Assembly (NCBI GenBank): GCA_903837595.1
Contig: CAILVI010000461.1
Span: 1 to 33,775, forward strand
Source of the DNA: an uncultured Thiodictyon sp.
GTDB taxonomy: Bacteria; Pseudomonadota; Gammaproteobacteria; Chromatiales; Chromatiaceae
Length of the DNA: 33,775 nt
Reading direction: 5' to 3'
Numbering within the stretch: the first letter of the stretch is position 1; each line of letters starts with the position of its first letter. Made by a program: the position numbers and the translations under genes. The notes beneath the pieces were generated by a model. The model did no database searches, was not told the origin of the DNA, and saw nothing but the letters and a program-made list of their open reading frames with translations. This document shows positions 11,769 to 31,918 of the stretch, in pieces.

Positions 11769-11789
11769 TCACACGAGTCGACCGTCGCG

Positions 11790-13010
11790 CCGTCCCTTTT
11801 CCCACGGAAGCAATGCTCTTCAGCCACCCGCGTCGCACGAACCGCCCCGCGACCAAGACCGCAACCGCTAATCCCTGCGAGGAACCATAACGCACACCGT
11901 CCCTTTTCCCACGATAAGCAGTCCCCGGGGTAGCCAAGCACCAGGAACGCGTCCGCCGCACCCGGCCAAGGCCCTGTGACCGTCCTCTTTCCCACGAAGC
12001 AAGACTATCCCGGGATAAGGGCGGCACCCACCCCACTCCCCCGGCCCCGCAGACACCACTTGCATAGCGGCAAAACGCGGCTGCAAACGGCCGCCCCGGC
12101 CACGACAACACATTGTTTTCTTTCAGTGAATGCGGTTATTCTGGCGCCGTGCCCACCCATCCTGCTAACCCCCCAAGCAGGATCCTACCCATCCATAACA
12201 CCGCCCTCTTTCCCACGAAACCCGAAAGCCCCACCTCCGATCAATCAGCCATCCCGTCCAATCCCCAACCCGCGCACCCCGACACGCTGGTCAGATTGTC
12301 GACAGAGCAAACAAGCCATTTTCAGGAAAAACGGCCTGACCAACGGCCTACAAGCCGCCTGAGAAGCCAGCAATTCCGCCCCAACCACTTGCAGGCCGTG
12401 TCCACCTTGCGACCTGAACGCGCGCGCCCTCCCATAGCCACCGCCACCTTGACTCATTCGTGAAGCTGCCGCTTGAGCAAAGCTCCCTAACCCCGCCCCG
12501 ACAGAGCGCCCCTCGCACCATCCCGACGGGGACCGCCGCTAACATGCAAAGCCCCCCGTCGCCCTGTCCTTCCCACCCGTAGCCCCGCAACCCGGCCCAC
12601 CGAACCCACGCCGCATCCGTAAACCCCTCCCCCTCCACCCCAACCAGCCACCTCTGCCGCCCCTCTGGCACCGTCCATTTTCCCACGAAACTGGCGCCAT
12701 AAGCTTTTATAACAACCTCTTACGAATATACCTCGCCGCGACCCGAGTCCCGAGCCCCCGCCGGGGCACAAGCGCAATCCCATCGCGCTCAGGGCGAATC
12801 CACTCCCCAGCGGCGCCCAACTCCACCCCCACGAAGCCATCCCCACCGTCCTCTTTCCCACGTAGTGGAACCCGCTGCACCCACTTATCCACAGAGGCAC
12901 CGCCCACCTTCCCACGCAGCACCGTCCTCTTTCCCCTTATCCCTCGTCCTTCTTCCCACGATCCACCGCCCGTCTTCCCACGAAACGCCGTCTCTTTTCC
13001 CACGAAGCAA
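11790..13010 (+). repeat. About eleven iterons sharing TTCCCACG
   Basis: The copies, all on the plus strand, start at about 11790, 11897, 11980, 12201, 12671, 12846, 12904 (short), 12922 (degenerate, lacks CACG), 12944, 12966 and 12988. The best consensus is CCGTCCTCTTTCCCACGAAG. Spacing is loose for the first five and tight (about 20 bases) for the last five. Same orientation, conserved core and position beside the initiator gene mark them as initiator binding sites. Confidence 0.85.
12885..12893 (+). promoter_or_regulatory. DnaA box TTATCCACA
   Basis: A perfect 9-base match to the strong DnaA box lies between the sixth and seventh iterons and about 150 bases before the AT-rich block. That is the expected arrangement for a host-DnaA-assisted plasmid origin. 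Confidence 0.8.
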
Positions 13011-17239: not shown

Positions 17240-17365
17240 CCGTGAAAGTCGCGCCGGGAGCGCGCTCCAATTCTCCCTCCCCTATTGGGGGAGGGCCGGG
17301 GAGGGGAACGGCCCAGGCGCCCGCCACATTCATCGTTCGGGGTGGTGCGGGCGCCATGGTCGTTA
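17240..17365. repeat. Dispersed about 126-bp repeat, copy 1
   Basis: This segment matches the reverse complement of 31791-31918 almost end to end, with scattered substitutions and small indels. It begins CCGTGAAAGTCGCGCCGGGA and ends GCGCCATGGTCGTTA. The core CCCTCCCC...GGGGAGGG is a hairpin also found, in shorter form, at 24786-24808 and 32770-32800. It fills the gap between the DUF6513 and DUF447 genes and touches the DUF6513 stop codon. Confidence 0.85.
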
Positions 17366-24873: not shown

Positions 24874-27186
24874 ATGCCCGCGAAGGAAGCAACAGCGCGC
24901 ATCAAGATCAACAAGCTGCTGGAAGCCGCGGGTTGGCGATTCTTTGCCGATGGCGGCCGACCGGCCAACATCCGCCTCGAGCCGGGTTTCATACTCAAGG
25001 CCTCCGACCTGGATGCCCTTGGCTCCAACTTTGAAAAGGCCAGCCGCGGCTTTATCGACTTCCTGTTGCTGAATGCGCAGGGATTCCCGCTGATCGTGCT
25101 GGAGGCTAAGGCCGAGGACAAGAACCCACTGATCGGCAAGGAACAGGCGCGCAAATATGCCAAGTCGCTGAACTGTCGGTTTGTCATACTCTCCAACGGC
25201 AATCTGCACTATTTCTGGGATCTCGCGCGCGGCAATCCCTATCTCATCACCTCGTTCCCGACCCCTGAGTCAGTCCTTGGGTATCAAAAGGTAACGCCCG
25301 ACCCGCAGCGCCTCATCGACGAGCCGGTCGGCGACGACTACATCGCGCTGACGCAGCGCCCGGCCTACCAGTCCGAGGCCGCGTGGCGCAATCCCGCGGA
25401 GCGTCCAGACTACATAAAAACCAACAAACTGCGCTTTCTGCGCCCCTATCAGCTCAAAGGCGTCCATGTACTGCAATGGGCCGTGCGCGAGGGCAAGGAT
25501 CGCTTCCTCTTCGAGATGGCCACCGGAACCGGCAAGACCCTGATTGCCGCCGCCGTGATCAATTTCGATCTGGTGATCTCCGACGAGGCGCATCGCTCCA
25601 TCGGCGGCAATGCCCGCGCCGTCTTCGACTATTTCATTGGCTACAAACTGGGCCTGACCGCCACCCCACGCGACTATCTCAAACGCTTCGACAGCGCCGA
25701 TCCGACCATCCGCGATCCGCGCGAGGCCGAGCGCCGCCTGTTGCTCGATACCTATCGCACCTTTGGCTGCGAGAACAGCCAGCCGACCTATCGCTACTCG
25801 CTGCTCGATGGCGTGAAAGAGGGGTACCTGATCAACCCGCTGGTGGTGGACGCCCGCACCGATATCACCACCGCCCTGCTTTCCGAAGAAGGCTTTGTCG
25901 TCGCCGGCACAGACGACACCGGCGATGACCAGCAGGAGACTTACAAGCAGCGGGAGTTTGAAAAGCGCTTTTTCTCCGAGGCCACCAATCAGCTCTTCTG
26001 CAAGACCTTTCTGGAGAATGCCCTACGCGACCCGGTCAGCGGCGAGATCGGTAAGTCCATCCTCTTTGCGGTGAGCCAACATCATGCCGGCAAGTTCACC
26101 CAGATCCTCAATCAAATGGCAGACCGCCTCTTCCCCGGTAAATATCAGTCGGACTTTGCGGTTCAGGTGACCTCGCAGGTCCCGGACGCGCAGCAATTCA
26201 CGATCAATTTCACGAACAACAGCCTGCTCGGTTCGGGTAACTTCCTGCCCGCCTATAAATCCAGCAAGGCGCGCGTCTGTGTGACGGTCGGCATGATGAC
26301 CACTGGCTATGACAGTCCGGATATACTCAATCTTGGCCTGTTGCGCCCGATCTTTTCACCCACCGACTTCATCCAGATCAAGGGTCGCGGCACCCGCAGA
26401 CACAACTTTCTGGATCAGCTCTTTGATGACAGGATCAAGGACGGCGTGGTGCAGCCCGAAAAGACCGCCTTCAAGCTCTTCGACTTCTTCGCCAACTGCG
26501 AGTATTTCGAGACCGAGTTCAACTACGACGAGGTGCTCAAGCTGCCGCGCCCGCAGGGCCTGGGTGGCGAAGGCGGGGCGGGTCCAGGCCCGACCGGCGG
26601 GGGTGCCTATGAACATCTTGGCGGCGACATCATCGCCTCGCTTCGGGTCGAACAGATCACCGCCGAGGGGATGAGGATCGACCGCATGTTCTTCGAAAAA
26701 TTCGAGGACAGCGTACGCGAGAACCCGGAGATCGTCGCCGCCATCGCGGCCGGGCAGTGGGACCGGGTCATCGACTATGTGAACCGCGAGGTCTTCGACC
26801 GACCAGAGGAATACTATACGCTGGACAAATTGCGCAAGGCTGCCGCCGTAGACCGGCGCCTGACCTTGCGGGAGATCCTGGAATAGGTCTTTGGTCTCAT
26901 CCCCCGCTTCAAGTCCAGGGATGAACTGCTGGAGGATGAGTTCGCCAAGTTCGTCGCCGACTGCAAACCGGACGAGGCAACGGCCATCCCGGCTATCAAG
27001 ACCTATTTCAAGGCGTATCTCACGAGCGGCCTGGTCCGCGACATCATCGACCGCCGCCATTACACCGATCTGGCCACCAACCCGATGTTCTCAACCCGCG
27101 ATTTCAAGGCCGTACCGCCGAAGTACCGCGCGCTCGTCCCTGATTACATCAAGGATTATGTCTCCTTGAACCAATTTGCCGCTTAA
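24874..27186 (+). pseudogene. hsdR: Type I restriction enzyme R subunit (hsdR), internal deletion and early amber stop
   Basis: The N-terminal nuclease domain is intact (FIDFLLLNAQG with D62, LIVLEAKAED with E77 and K79). The Walker A box MATGTGKTLIAAAVI (about 215-229) runs straight into NFDLVISDEAHRSIGG (DEAH at 237-240). Normal HsdR proteins have roughly 60-70 residues between these, including motif Ia, so an in-frame deletion has removed part of the first helicase lobe. Motifs of lobe two remain (VTVGMMTTGYDSPDI, FIQIKGRGTRRHN). The frame stops at TAG 26884 after RLTLREILE, then continues as VFGLIPRFKSRDELLEDEFA to YIKDYVSLNQFAA at 27186, the usual family C-terminus, so one codon became a stop. 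ATP-driven DNA translocation, and hence restriction, should be lost. Confidence 0.88.
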
Positions 27187-27194
27187 GAATTTAC

Positions 27195-27599
27195 ATGGAT
27201 AGACAGGATGCACAGGATGAGGGGCTAAAATATGGCCACCTCACGGAGGTGGTGATTGGGTGTGCGTTTGATGTGATCAACGAGCTAGGCGCCGGTTTTT
27301 TGGAATCGGTTTATGAGAACGCCTTATTGTTGGCGGTGCGGCAAAAAGGTCTGTCGGCCACTGCGCAGCAGCCGATCAAGGTCATGTTCAGAGGCGAATG
27401 TGTCGGCGACTTTTTTGCCGATATGTTGGTCGACGATAAAGTGCTTATTGAACTGAAAGCGGTTAAGGCTCTCGCGCCCGAACATCAAGCCCAGATCATC
27501 AATTATCTCAACGCTACGGGCATCGAAGTCGGACTACTCAGAAACTTCGGCCATCCGAAGCTGGAGTATCGACGCTTCACGCGAAGCAAGAATATTTAA
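27195..27599 (+). CDS. GxxExxY-family protein (PD-(D/E)XK-like fold)
   Basis: The 134-residue protein has the name-giving motif GAGFLESVYENAL and the nuclease-like core FADMLVDDKVLIELKAVKAL (D...ExK), then INYLNATGIEVGLLRNFG. Function of the family is unknown; the fold is that of PD-(D/E)XK nucleases. The first ten codons (MDRQDAQDEG) are not family sequence. They are encoded by one arm of the ACAGGAT repeat (27193-27221), so the present start codon comes from the repeat. It lies eight bases after the hsdR remnant and before hsdM. Its 3' end (about 27571-27600) is duplicated twice in the following tandem array. Confidence 0.88.
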   Translation: MDRQDAQDEGLKYGHLTEVVIGCAFDVINELGAGFLESVYENALLLAVRQKGLSATAQQPIKVMFRGECVGDFFADMLVDDKVLIELKAVKALAPEHQAQIINYLNATGIEVGLLRNFGHPKLEYRRFTRSKNI

Positions 27600-27972
27600 C
27601 ATGGATGGACAGGATTGGCAGGATAAAAACCATGATATTATCTTGTTAATCCTGTTTATCCATGTAGAGAATCGACGCTTCACGCGAAATAAGAATATTT
27701 GACATGGATGCACAGGATTAACAGGATAAGAAATACAAAGATATTATCTTGTTAATCCTGTTTATCCATGTAGATAATCGACGCTTCACGCGAAATAAGA
27801 ATATTTAACATGGATGCACAGGATTGGCAGGATAAGAGACAATGATATTATCTTGTTAATCCTGTCCATCCATGTAGATAATCTTTCTTGTCTTTTAGCC
27901 ATCTTGTATAGAGCCAACAGGATCGGCAATATAAGAGATTATCCTGTTAATCCTGTTCATCCATGTAGATAA
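27571..27972. repeat. Tandem array of gene tail plus ACAGGAT palindromes
   Basis: A unit of about 103-106 bases joins a 31-base copy of the end of the GxxExxY gene (GACGCTTCACGCGAA...AATATTT) to a hairpin. The hairpin left arm starts ACATGGATG.ACAGGATT and the right arm ends TAATCCTGTTTATCCATGT. Hairpin left arms begin at 27599, 27702 and 27808; a fourth, decayed hairpin covers about 27911-27968. Arms end just before the hsdM ATG. Frequent repeat-unit identity and the copied gene tail show local tandem duplication after the element arrived. Confidence 0.9.
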
Positions 27973-27980
27973 TCTTTCCT

Positions 27981-30053
27981 ATGCTCGATACTGATACTAA
28001 GCGCCGCATCGATTCCGCCCGCGATATCCTCGTCGGCAAGGTGCCCGACCCCAAGAGCCAAGTGGAGCAGATCACGATCGCGCTGATCTATAAATTCATG
28101 GACGATATGGATGCCGAGGCCGAGGAACTGGGCGGCCAACGCAAGTTTTTCGCCCGCGATTTTGCCCGCTATGGCTGGGCCAAGCTCATGCGCTCCGGGC
28201 TCGGCGGGCATGAGACCCTGAACCTCTATGCCGAGGCCATCGGCAGAATGCCGGAGAACCCCGGCATCCCGCCGCTGTTCCGCGAGATCTTCAAGAACGC
28301 GTATCTGCCCTATCGGGACCCGGAGACCCTGCGCGCCTTCCTCAAGATCATCGACGAGTTCGAGTATGACCACTCCGAGCGTTTGGGTGATGCCTTCGAG
28401 TACCTGCTCTCGGTACTCGGCTCCCAGGGCAGCGCCGGGCAGTTCCGCACCCCGCGCCACATCATCGAATTCGTGGTTGAAGTCATCGACCCCAAGAAGT
28501 ACGAGACCGTGCTCGATCCCGCCTGCGGGACGGCCGGATTTTTGATCTCTGCCTATAAACATATTTTGGCGAAAAATATAATTAACATGGATGAAGAGGA
28601 TGGGCAGGATAAGAGTTCTTTATCCTGCCCATCCTCTTCATCCATGTTGATTTCTTCGCTCACACCCGATGAACGTGCGCGGCTGGTCGGCAATTTTAAG
28701 GGCTATGACATTTCACCCGATATGGTGCGGCTGTCGCTGGTGAATTTATATCTGCATGGGTTCGCCGATCCGCATATCTTTGAATATGACACACTCACCA
28801 GCCAGGAGCGTTGGAATGATTTTGCCGATGTCATCCTTGCCAATCCGCCCTTTATGTCGCCGAAGGGCGGCATCAAACCGCACAATCGGTTTTCGGTCCA
28901 GAGTAAGCGCAGCGAGGTGTTGTTCGTCGACTATATGGCCGAACACCTGAAGCCGCAGGGCCGGGCCGGGATCATCGTCCCGGAGGGGATCATCTTTCAG
29001 AGCCAGACGGCCTATGTGAAATTGCGCAAGATGCTGGTGGAGGGCTATCTGGTCGCGGTCGTCTCGCTGCCGGCGGGGGTGTTCCAGCCCTATTCGGGGG
29101 TCAAGACATCGATTCTGATACTCGACAGGGCGCGGGCGCGGCGGTCCGATACAATCGGATTCTTTAAGGTCGTCAACGATGGCTTTGGGCTTGGTGCCCA
29201 GCGGCGCGCGATTGACAAGGATGACCTGCCAGAGACTGCGACTGGATTGAAAGAGTATTTTAACATGGATGGACAGGATAGACAGGATGAACAATTGGCC
29301 TCTTCATCCTCTTCATCCTGTCCATCCATGTTAAAATCGCTGATCGAGTCCGGTCGCGCATTGATTGTACCGAAGGAGAAAATTGCCGCGAATGGCGATT
29401 ATAGCCTGAGCGGAGAGCGGTATCGGGAGAGTGGCCCGAGAACTAATATTTTCCCTTTAGTGCGAATTGGGGATGTCTGCATTGTCAACCCGCGAAAGAG
29501 TCAGTTAGCTACGCTACCGCCGGACACAAAGGTCTCCTTCCTGCCGATGGCCGATCTAAATGAGCATTGCATTGCTTTTCGCCCCAGCGGGCAAAAGCTG
29601 CTTTCTGAGGTAACCTCAAGTTATACTTATTTTGAAGATGGCGATGTTTTGCTTGCGAAAGTGACGCCTTGCTTTGAGAATGGGAAAGCTGGTATTGCTC
29701 GCTCGTTGGTAAATGGGATTGGGTTCGGGTCTAGCGAGTATTATGTGCTACGAAGTGGCGTGCAAGTTCTTCCCGAATGGATCTATTTTTGTGTGATGCA
29801 TCCCTTTTTCCGCGATGATGCTATTGCTCAGATGACAGGAACTGGCGGACTTCAACGAGTACCGCGCGATTATGTTGAAAACTTCCGCATTCCGCTTCCT
29901 CCGCTTGATATGCAAAAGGAGATCATCGCGGAGATCAAGGGATATCAGATCGAAATAGAGCAGCTCAAGCTTGTAATTACTGAGGAGGAGGCGAAGATCC
30001 AGGAGACGCTGGCCCGCGTGTGGGGTGAGTCGGATGACATTCAAGCAGAGTAG
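27981..30053 (+). CDS. hsdM: Type I DNA adenine methyltransferase with fused half-specificity (S) domain
   Basis: The 690-residue protein begins with an HsdM N-terminal helical domain (KRRIDSARDILVGKV, about 7-21). The SAM-binding motif DPACGTAGFL (179-188) and the catalytic motif NPPF (288-291) mark an N6-adenine methyltransferase. From about 480 it continues as one target-recognition domain (IFPLVRIGDVCIVNP, then FEDGDVLLAKVTPCFENGKA, GFGSSEYYVLR, VPRDYVENFRIPLPPLDMQK) and a C-terminal helix, so M and half of S are fused. Two palindromic elements are inserted in frame: residues about 202-222 (NMDEEDGQDKSSLSCPSSSS) between motifs I and IV, and about 428-452 (NMDGQDRQDEQLAS...SCPSM) before the S part. 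The reading frame survives both. With one target domain it should work as a dimer. Whether it still methylates is unknown. Confidence 0.92.
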   Translation: MLDTDTKRRIDSARDILVGKVPDPKSQVEQITIALIYKFMDDMDAEAEELGGQRKFFARDFARYGWAKLMRSGLGGHETLNLYAEAIGRMPENPGIPPLFREIFKNAYLPYRDPETLRAFLKIIDEFEYDHSERLGDAFEYLLSVLGSQGSAGQFRTPRHIIEFVVEVIDPKKYETVLDPACGTAGFLISAYKHILAKNIINMDEEDGQDKSSLSCPSSSSMLISSLTPDERARLVGNFKGYDISPDMVRLSLVNLYLHGFADPHIFEYDTLTSQERWNDFADVILANPPFMSPKGGIKPHNRFSVQSKRSEVLFVDYMAEHLKPQGRAGIIVPEGIIFQSQTAYVKLRKMLVEGYLVAVVSLPAGVFQPYSGVKTSILILDRARARRSDTIGFFKVVNDGFGLGAQRRAIDKDDLPETATGLKEYFNMDGQDRQDEQLASSSSSSCPSMLKSLIESGRALIVPKEKIAANGDYSLSGERYRESGPRTNIFPLVRIGDVCIVNPRKSQLATLPPDTKVSFLPMADLNEHCIAFRPSGQKLLSEVTSSYTYFEDGDVLLAKVTPCFENGKAGIARSLVNGIGFGSSEYYVLRSGVQVLPEWIYFCVMHPFFRDDAIAQMTGTGGLQRVPRDYVENFRIPLPPLDMQKEIIAEIKGYQIEIEQLKLVITEEEAKIQETLARVWGESDDIQAE
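28584..28648. repeat. Perfect 29-bp inverted repeat inserted in frame in hsdM
   Basis: Arms 28584-28612 and 28620-28648 are exact complements with a seven-base loop. The left arm starts AACATGGATGAAGAGGATGG. It belongs to the same family as the intergenic hairpins at 27599-27972. In hsdM it encodes an acidic stretch then a Ser-rich stretch. Confidence 0.92.
29258..29336. repeat. Second in-frame palindromic element in hsdM
   Basis: Outer arms 29258-29279 and 29315-29336 are exact 22-base complements (left arm begins TTTTAACATGGATGGACAGG). The inner part is an imperfect hairpin. It encodes NMDGQDRQDEQ followed by a run of six serines, between the methyltransferase core and the S-like domain. 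Confidence 0.9.
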
Positions 30054-30206
30054 GTTCACGCGATCTATTGCTTTGGGGCTTGGCTGCTCGGGTCGGTCAA
30101 TAACAGGAGGTCGAGGCTTTAGCCGGTAGCGGTGGCGGACAGAACTAACAGAAATCGGTGCCGCCTGCATGGCGGACCGGCGAAAGACTTGATTTCCATT
30201 AGTTTC

Positions 30207-30236
30207 TGATCCTGTTTATCCTGTCCATCCATGTTA
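30207..30236. repeat. Right-arm copy of the ACAGGAT element
   Basis: ATCCTGTTTATCCTGTCCAT followed by CCATGTTAA matches the right arm of the palindromes at 27599-27972 and in hsdM. No left arm precedes it. It lies in the gap between hsdM and the cytochrome c gene. Confidence 0.8.
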
Positions 30237-31672: not shown

Positions 31673-31791
31673 GACCCTTGAGCTGTACCGCTGGAACCTG
31701 GCGCGGCGCGCCTGGATGTTGGAGCGGTCCCGCGCAAGCCCCACGGGACGCCCCGCGACCCTTGAGGGGTACCGCTGGGGTCTGGCGCGGT
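31673..31791. repeat. Pair of 35-bp direct repeats, 84-bp period
   Basis: GACCCTTGAGCTGTACCGCT... (31673-31707) and GACCCTTGAGGGGTACCGCT... (31757-31791) agree at most positions. They look like remnants of a tandem duplication ending exactly where the dispersed repeat copy begins. Confidence 0.65.
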
Positions 31792-31918
31792 AACGGCCAT
31801 GGCGCCCGCGCCACCCCGCAAGATGAAAGTGGCGGGCGCCTTGGCCGTTCCCCCGCCCCGGCCCGCCCCCACAAGGGGGAGGGAGAAGTGGAGCGCGCTC
31901 CCGGCGCGACTTTCACGG
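31791..31918. repeat. Dispersed about 126-bp repeat, copy 2 (inverted)
   Basis: This is the reverse-complement counterpart of 17240-17365. Matching ends are TAACGGCCATGGCGCCCGCG at its left and the CTTTCACGG end at its right. Two copies 14.4 kb apart in inverted orientation could recombine. Confidence 0.85.

Follow-up and report, generated by a model that had tools for sequence, protein, structure and literature searches.

A 33,775-nucleotide stretch of DNA from an uncultured Thiodictyon sp. (contig CAILVI010000461.1, here C461; the whole stretch is called the window) carries two perfect palindromes in frame inside hsdM, a DNA methyltransferase gene. These are probably gene-less (solo) copies of a GxxExxY element whose nuclease-bearing form stands in the same operon, a reading to which we give a probability of roughly two in three. 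The anatomy of the locus, the association of gene with arms, the tracking of the nuclease tree by arm class, the preserved frame and the predicted loop position of the inserts carry this reading. Its gene-bearing form, from 27193 to about 27665, would comprise an arm, a GxxExxY nuclease gene and an inverted arm. The hsdM hairpins and the inverted repeats flanking GxxExxY genes suggest a type of mobile element that has been overlooked.

Results

Both palindromes have the arm lengths and coordinates given in an earlier note on this DNA (29 and 22 perfect bases; Table 1), and the outer arms at site 2 reach 23 bases if taken at 29257-29337. The best-scoring hairpin of hsdM reaches 30.5, whereas 60 dinucleotide shuffles of the gene gave at most 12.0 and the background, 25,670 centres elsewhere in 82 hsdM genes, peaks at 15.5. 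A split-window hairpin scan, which catches the better palindromes only, reached a score of at least 13 in 2/82 genes at site 1 and 5/82 at site 2. As that note had held, both palindromes keep the reading frame, a single open frame of 690 residues; for each, stops fall inside the arms in one of the two remaining frames. The acidic-then-Ser-rich character of the inserts is borne out as well (NMDEEDGQD.. and FNMDGQD.., then ..SCPSSSSM and ..SCPSM), and so is their placement: site 1 has DPACGTAGF on one side and NPPF on the other, and site 2 lies between the N6_Mtase match (residues 133-426) and the Methylase_S match (494-660). The size first proposed, about 21-25 added residues each, overstates the net gain, since a short native loop was replaced: measured against the commonest loop length among 82 homologs, site 1 gained 19 residues (32 against 13) and site 2 gained 16 (44 against 28). 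The suspected loop position is also predicted by the AlphaFold model of HsdM (mean predicted local distance difference test score, pLDDT, 81.9), in which residues 213-221 and 434-445, within the two inserts, fall below 50; six segments do so, two in the inserts and four elsewhere.

The only GxxExxY gene found in this genome lies between hsdR and hsdM. Its open reading frame (ORF) exceeds the cut-offs of both family models, TIGR04256 (135.4 bits; cut-off 35) and PF13366 (133.5; cut-off 22), and GxxExxY is its sole NCBIfam match at E 0.001; a PDB sequence search with the nuclease gave no match. The gene takes its ATG from the arm ACATGGATAGACAGGATGCACAGGAT, and the first residues, MDRQDAQDE, are therefore repeat-encoded. 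Where the gene-bearing unit ends on the right is ambiguous, since a forward arm starts at the stop codon and an inverted arm follows only at 27640; at another locus (L080), an inverted arm directly follows the GxxExxY gene. In a 59-row alignment (20 of 78 locus rows were left out, one for stops and the others by choice), G34, E37, D76 and K88 are invariant and E86, Q100 and Y104 are kept in at least 90% of rows; the window protein retains all of them. GxxE, D, ExK and QxxxY form the motif set of RecB/Cas4-type PD-(D/E)XK nucleases; SSO0001 we take to be a Cas4 protein.

Further arm copies in the genome, which the earlier note had suggested looking for, number 13 exact ones in the 7.79-Mb assembly, every one of them near one of two hsdM paralogs: the window contig has 10 (27193 to 30234) and contig C95 has 3. 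Allowing up to two mismatches raises the count to 26, of which these two contigs carry 17 and other contigs 9 weaker ones. The exact pattern has no match in 92 related genomes. As had been observed, the same palindrome family also lies between genes nearby, as hairpins in the hsdR-hsdM gap. The C95 paralog, 90% identical in the M domain, has a palindrome at site 2, its site-1 loop is short, and a GxxExxY C-terminal remnant lies upstream of it. This paralog offers the nearest empty site, although its loop differs and is not cleanly interrupted. Among 72,556 plasmid records, pattern P0002 alone matches 8.

Inverted arms often flank GxxExxY genes. The family was sought in 50 genomes from many phyla, chosen through HsdM (match in 25/50), and in a set of 93, the window genome and its relatives (31/93); 97 loci were fetched, and the tests cover these only. 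Inverted repeats lie on both sides of the gene in 66 of 86 loci at a score of at least 14 and in 60 at 16 or more, after 11 of the 97 were dropped (7 without the motif, 3 short, 1 duplicate). A first version of the test (3 of 97 dropped: 2 for short flanks, 1 duplicate) gave 65/94 and 58/94 at the same thresholds and missed the arm in the MDxQDxQD clade; it is superseded by the 86-locus test and by one set by hidden Markov model (HMM) coordinates. In the latter, 36 of 47 GxxExxY genes were armed against 3 of 476 control windows in the same loci, and ParE toxin genes of the same 50 genomes had inverted arms in 0 of 26 cases; contig ends, size range and duplicates removed 13/60 GxxExxY, 4/30 ParE and 3/30 TIGR02436 loci. 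Judged by eye and by a period estimate, many arms share a grammar of about three units, mostly 8 to 10 bases apart, of CACAGAG, CGCAAAG, CACGAAG, CGCAGAT, CACGGAA and ACAGGAT types.

Arm class could be assigned in 64 of the 86 GxxExxY rows, and a tree of the 86 domains was made without the arms. On this tree arm class changes 11 times, against a mean of 37.5 after shuffling, and none of 200 shuffles was as low. Shuffling labels within genomes gave a mean of 24.5 changes and a lowest value of 17 (300 shuffles); the signal survives and is therefore more than host composition. Thinned rows gave 11 changes against 28.2 shuffled. The non-coding arms preserve their class, iteration and symmetry across wide protein distances, which suggests recognition by the protein.

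At hsdM itself, the best 80 homologs of the search were kept and 82 loci compared (45 of the 82 proteins in the HsdM protein alignment). Because two of the six peptide patterns used for searching lay in the inserts, carriers may be over-represented. A GxxExxY gene or remnant occurs in 8 of the 82 loci, and an arm-type hsdM insert is present in 6 of these 8 against 3 of the other 74 (p = 6e-6), with insert types called by eye and two CACAA cases worn (L019, L051). The association is weaker for CAGGAT inserts alone (4/8 against 3/74; p = 0.0012). Relatives of the window nuclease, 65 to 77% identical and with the same arm type, stand just upstream of hsdM in L042, L071 and L080.

The same residues in HsdM of unrelated lineages would, according to the earlier note, have spoken against insertion. 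Such residues do occur, of the MDxQDxQD type, at site 1 in L042 and L044 and at site 2 in L044, L080, L081 and L087; yet the site-1 loop is short in 44 of 82 homologs, and carriers are scattered. The commonest site-2 length is found in 37/82. On the M-domain tree, the 3 CAGGAT carriers at site 1 require at least 3 changes and the 6 at site 2 at least 6, and the well-supported branches taken alone are compatible with a single origin. The S-module tree (two of 82 rows dropped as too short; long branches present) gives 5 changes for 5 carriers, and its starred branches force all 5. Both repeated insertion and linker transfer by recombination are possible sources of this scatter. Loops that exceed the commonest length by more than 3 residues occur at site 1 in 33/82 HsdM and at site 2 in 15/82; some of the long ones look native (e.g., L033, L034). 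Others hold different in-frame repeats by eye: SPSPLAGEGRGEG (e.g., L021, L061), NYELRITN-type (L047, L053, L016) and DRSDRSDPSD-type (L065, L073). Site 1 is occupied by other repeat families in L018, L021, L050, L058, L061, L075 and L079, among others.

Solo copies also occur elsewhere. In a Methanosarcinales archaeon (genome G111; L032), the pattern CCACAGAGNNCACAGAG occurs 57 times, and one arm pair encloses a GxxExxY gene (L128). Another 20 places were fetched; each proved to be a hairpin, and in 18 no frame of 90 codons spans it. Every genome with either of two arm patterns has GxxExxY (12/12, against 25/50 overall), a result partly built in because the gene's own arms count.

The earlier note had suggested looking for a transposase with matching ends, RAYT-type or other; no RAYT-type gene was found near, and it is the GxxExxY nuclease gene that adjoins hsdM with matching ends. 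The genome has 12 Y1_Tnp matches, none of them on C461 or C95, and the 10 of these 12 loci that were scanned hold no arm motif; a RAYT as partner was rejected on these grounds. Membership in the 23S ribosomal RNA (rRNA) intervening sequence was also rejected: Rfam gives no family at cut-off within the window, and no NCBIfam model other than GxxExxY matches the gene at E 0.001.

Table 1. Coordinates of hsdM, the GxxExxY gene and the arm copies in the window.
Feature	Position	Strand	Remarks
Left arm, ACATGGATNNACAGGATNNACAGGAT	27193..27218	+	holds start codon and first codons of GxxExxY gene
GxxExxY protein (TIGR04256 / PF13366 PDDEXK_3)	27195..27599	+	134 amino acids
Forward arm, starting at last base of GxxExxY stop codon	27599..27624	+	hairpin with 27640-27665
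Inverted arm	27640..27665	-	best inverted partner of left arm 27193-27218 (score 17.5)
Hairpin of two arms, hsdR-hsdM gap	27702..27771	.	in direct repeat of about 106 bases
Hairpin of two arms, hsdR-hsdM gap	27808..27875	.	
Inverted arm immediately upstream of hsdM	27941..27966	-	
hsdM	27981..30053	+	690 amino acids; N6_Mtase domain, then Methylase_S match
In-frame palindrome, site 1	28584..28648		about residues 202-223; perfect 29-base arms
In-frame palindrome, site 2	29258..29336		about residues 427-452; perfect 22-base outer arms
Single arm downstream of hsdM	30209..30234	-	

Upstream, at 24874-27187 of the window, the hsdR frame ends at 26886, well short of a stretch near 27150-27187 that resembles the HsdR end preceding other copies, and hsdR looks interrupted. 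Elsewhere in the window, a 21-base direct repeat near ACCGTCCTCTTTCCCACG occurs in ten copies at 11789-13007, and a 94-base inverted repeat (17272-17365 and 31791-31884, 14 kb apart) is 81% complementary.

Discussion

The GxxExxY nuclease, with its predicted Cas4/RecB-like PD-(D/E)XK fold, probably recognises its own iterated arms, much as RAYTs do with REPINs. Cutting of arms or targets by this enzyme would drive spread, and gene loss may give rise to the solo copies. Their persistence in hsdM would be due to an open, polar frame through both arms (MDxQDxQD, then SCPSSSSM) and to two loops that tolerate inserts. The circumstantial case for nuclease-driven spread is a good one, and we offer it as a hypothesis. 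More tentatively, with odds that we place somewhat short of even, a large mobile-element superfamily of bacteria and archaea may have gone unrecognised, with GxxExxY proteins as its enzymes; the nuclease would recognise about three iterated 7-mers (often C-R-C-R-R-A-K), co-evolve with them, and spread both gene-bearing copies and solo copies able to survive in frame.

Several observations weigh against a GxxExxY origin of the palindromes. No empty/filled pair with target duplication was found, the short loop at site 1 having been replaced, and no single movement event was seen. At the hsdM loci, a GxxExxY gene with CAGGAT arms occurs in L071 without an insert in hsdM, the gene of L025 lacks arms, and L044, L081 and L087 have an hsdM insert and no GxxExxY found in the locus. 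Among GxxExxY loci generally, 20 of 86 fall below the inverted-repeat threshold, and in the first version of that test mismatched flank pairs reached the threshold in 114 of 3000 cases because arm families are common to several loci. Resolution of the nuclease tree is poor, with 10 of its 83 inner branches starred, and beyond 1.5 changes per column the nearest row matches in arm class in 29 of 64 cases, close above the shuffled maximum of 27 (mean 13.4). Part of the tree signal could also arise if gene and arms were inherited as a linked unit with no recognition involved. In the archaeal genome G111, 17 of 20 CACAGAG hairpins (L281-L300) share 14 more bases on each side, and the spreading unit there is therefore longer than the arms. 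Genomes G130 and G140 have 25 and 21 CAGGAT copies and no GxxExxY gene found there classed as CAGGAT-armed, although both assemblies are possibly incomplete and G140's only GxxExxY match is partial. Finally, four-helix-bundle TIGR02436 genes are also armed, in 17 of 27 cases against 2 of 282 control windows.

The last two points, together with the arms that enclose stretches devoid of a GxxExxY gene, are those expected if the arms were a general repeat class spread by other host machinery or by machinery as yet unknown, with GxxExxY and four-helix-bundle genes as passengers. We consider this unlikely, though it deserves to be taken seriously. Arm class tracks the nuclease clade under within-genome shuffling and among thinned, divergent rows, the catalytic residues of GxxExxY are kept, and ParE genes of the same genomes are unarmed, all of which speaks against this account.

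Native, adaptive HsdM linkers, serving as protein linkers or regulatory hairpins rather than as mobile DNA, would explain why several lineages have similar residues at both places and would suit the single origin with which the well-supported M-domain branches are compatible. The short site-1 loop of 44/82 homologs and the commonest site-2 length of 37/82, one change per carrier on both trees, the other palindromic families in the same hsdM loops and the prediction of the inserts as low-confidence loops make this account very improbable. An even slimmer chance is left to the earlier note's own suggestion of selfish palindromes like REPIN/RAYT or like Rickettsia palindromic elements (RPE), which fits palindromes in frame within loops of a protein and intergenic copies nearby and fails on the exact copies, confined in 7.79 Mb to two hsdM loci where RPE membership implies one family in frame in many proteins, and on the Y1_Tnp results.

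The GxxExxY element nonetheless resembles several known systems, as far as the available portions of their descriptions go. It shares with REPIN/RAYT (PMC3116915) short inverted-repeat hairpins, gene-less copies and an adjacent protein that matches the repeat type. It differs in its protein, a PD-(D/E)XK nuclease, in its arms, made up of about three iterated 7-mers spaced 8-10 bases apart, and in having some copies in frame within a protein. RPE (PMC2229807) are likewise palindromes that conserved proteins carry in frame and tolerate; here, by contrast, exact copies are found around just two hsdM genes, and a nuclease-gene-bearing form adjoins them. The 23S rRNA intervening sequence is similarly a small gene in a hairpin-ended insert at a tolerated place, with tandem heptamers (GACAGAT) upstream of the S23p four-helix-bundle ORF, although its protein family differs, it sits in rRNA, and GxxExxY goes unmentioned in the part of that account available (PMC4990558). 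TIGR02436 loci (L221-L250) have flanking inverted short-period repeats, by eye often of period 7, in keeping with the heptamers that have been described ahead of S23p in Coxiella. The heptanucleotide multicopy sequences of Geobacter metallireducens, interpreted as putative regulatory sites, are also tandem 7-mers, both inter- and intragenic, and differ in that the accessible text mentions no cognate gene for them (PMC2700814). The GxxExxY family literature, in the sections available (e.g., PMC8934634), mentions no arms. Our literature search found neither a link between GxxExxY and such arms nor an assigned role for the family. With miniature inverted-repeat transposable elements the window palindromes share inverted repeats without a gene between them, and the gene-bearing GxxExxY form with the same arms is a candidate for the autonomous relative with the same ends.

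Small dispersed repeats occur in cyanobacteria, and environmental genomes contain many hairpin repeats of unknown origin, for which the link to GxxExxY provides a testable cognate pair. The enzymes of mobility usually belong to the DDE, HUH, serine or tyrosine classes; the proposal made here for GxxExxY would add a type outside all four. GxxExxY elements may be a source of in-frame palindromes outside Rickettsia, and the hsdM loops show a route by which such elements may feed new sequence into proteins.
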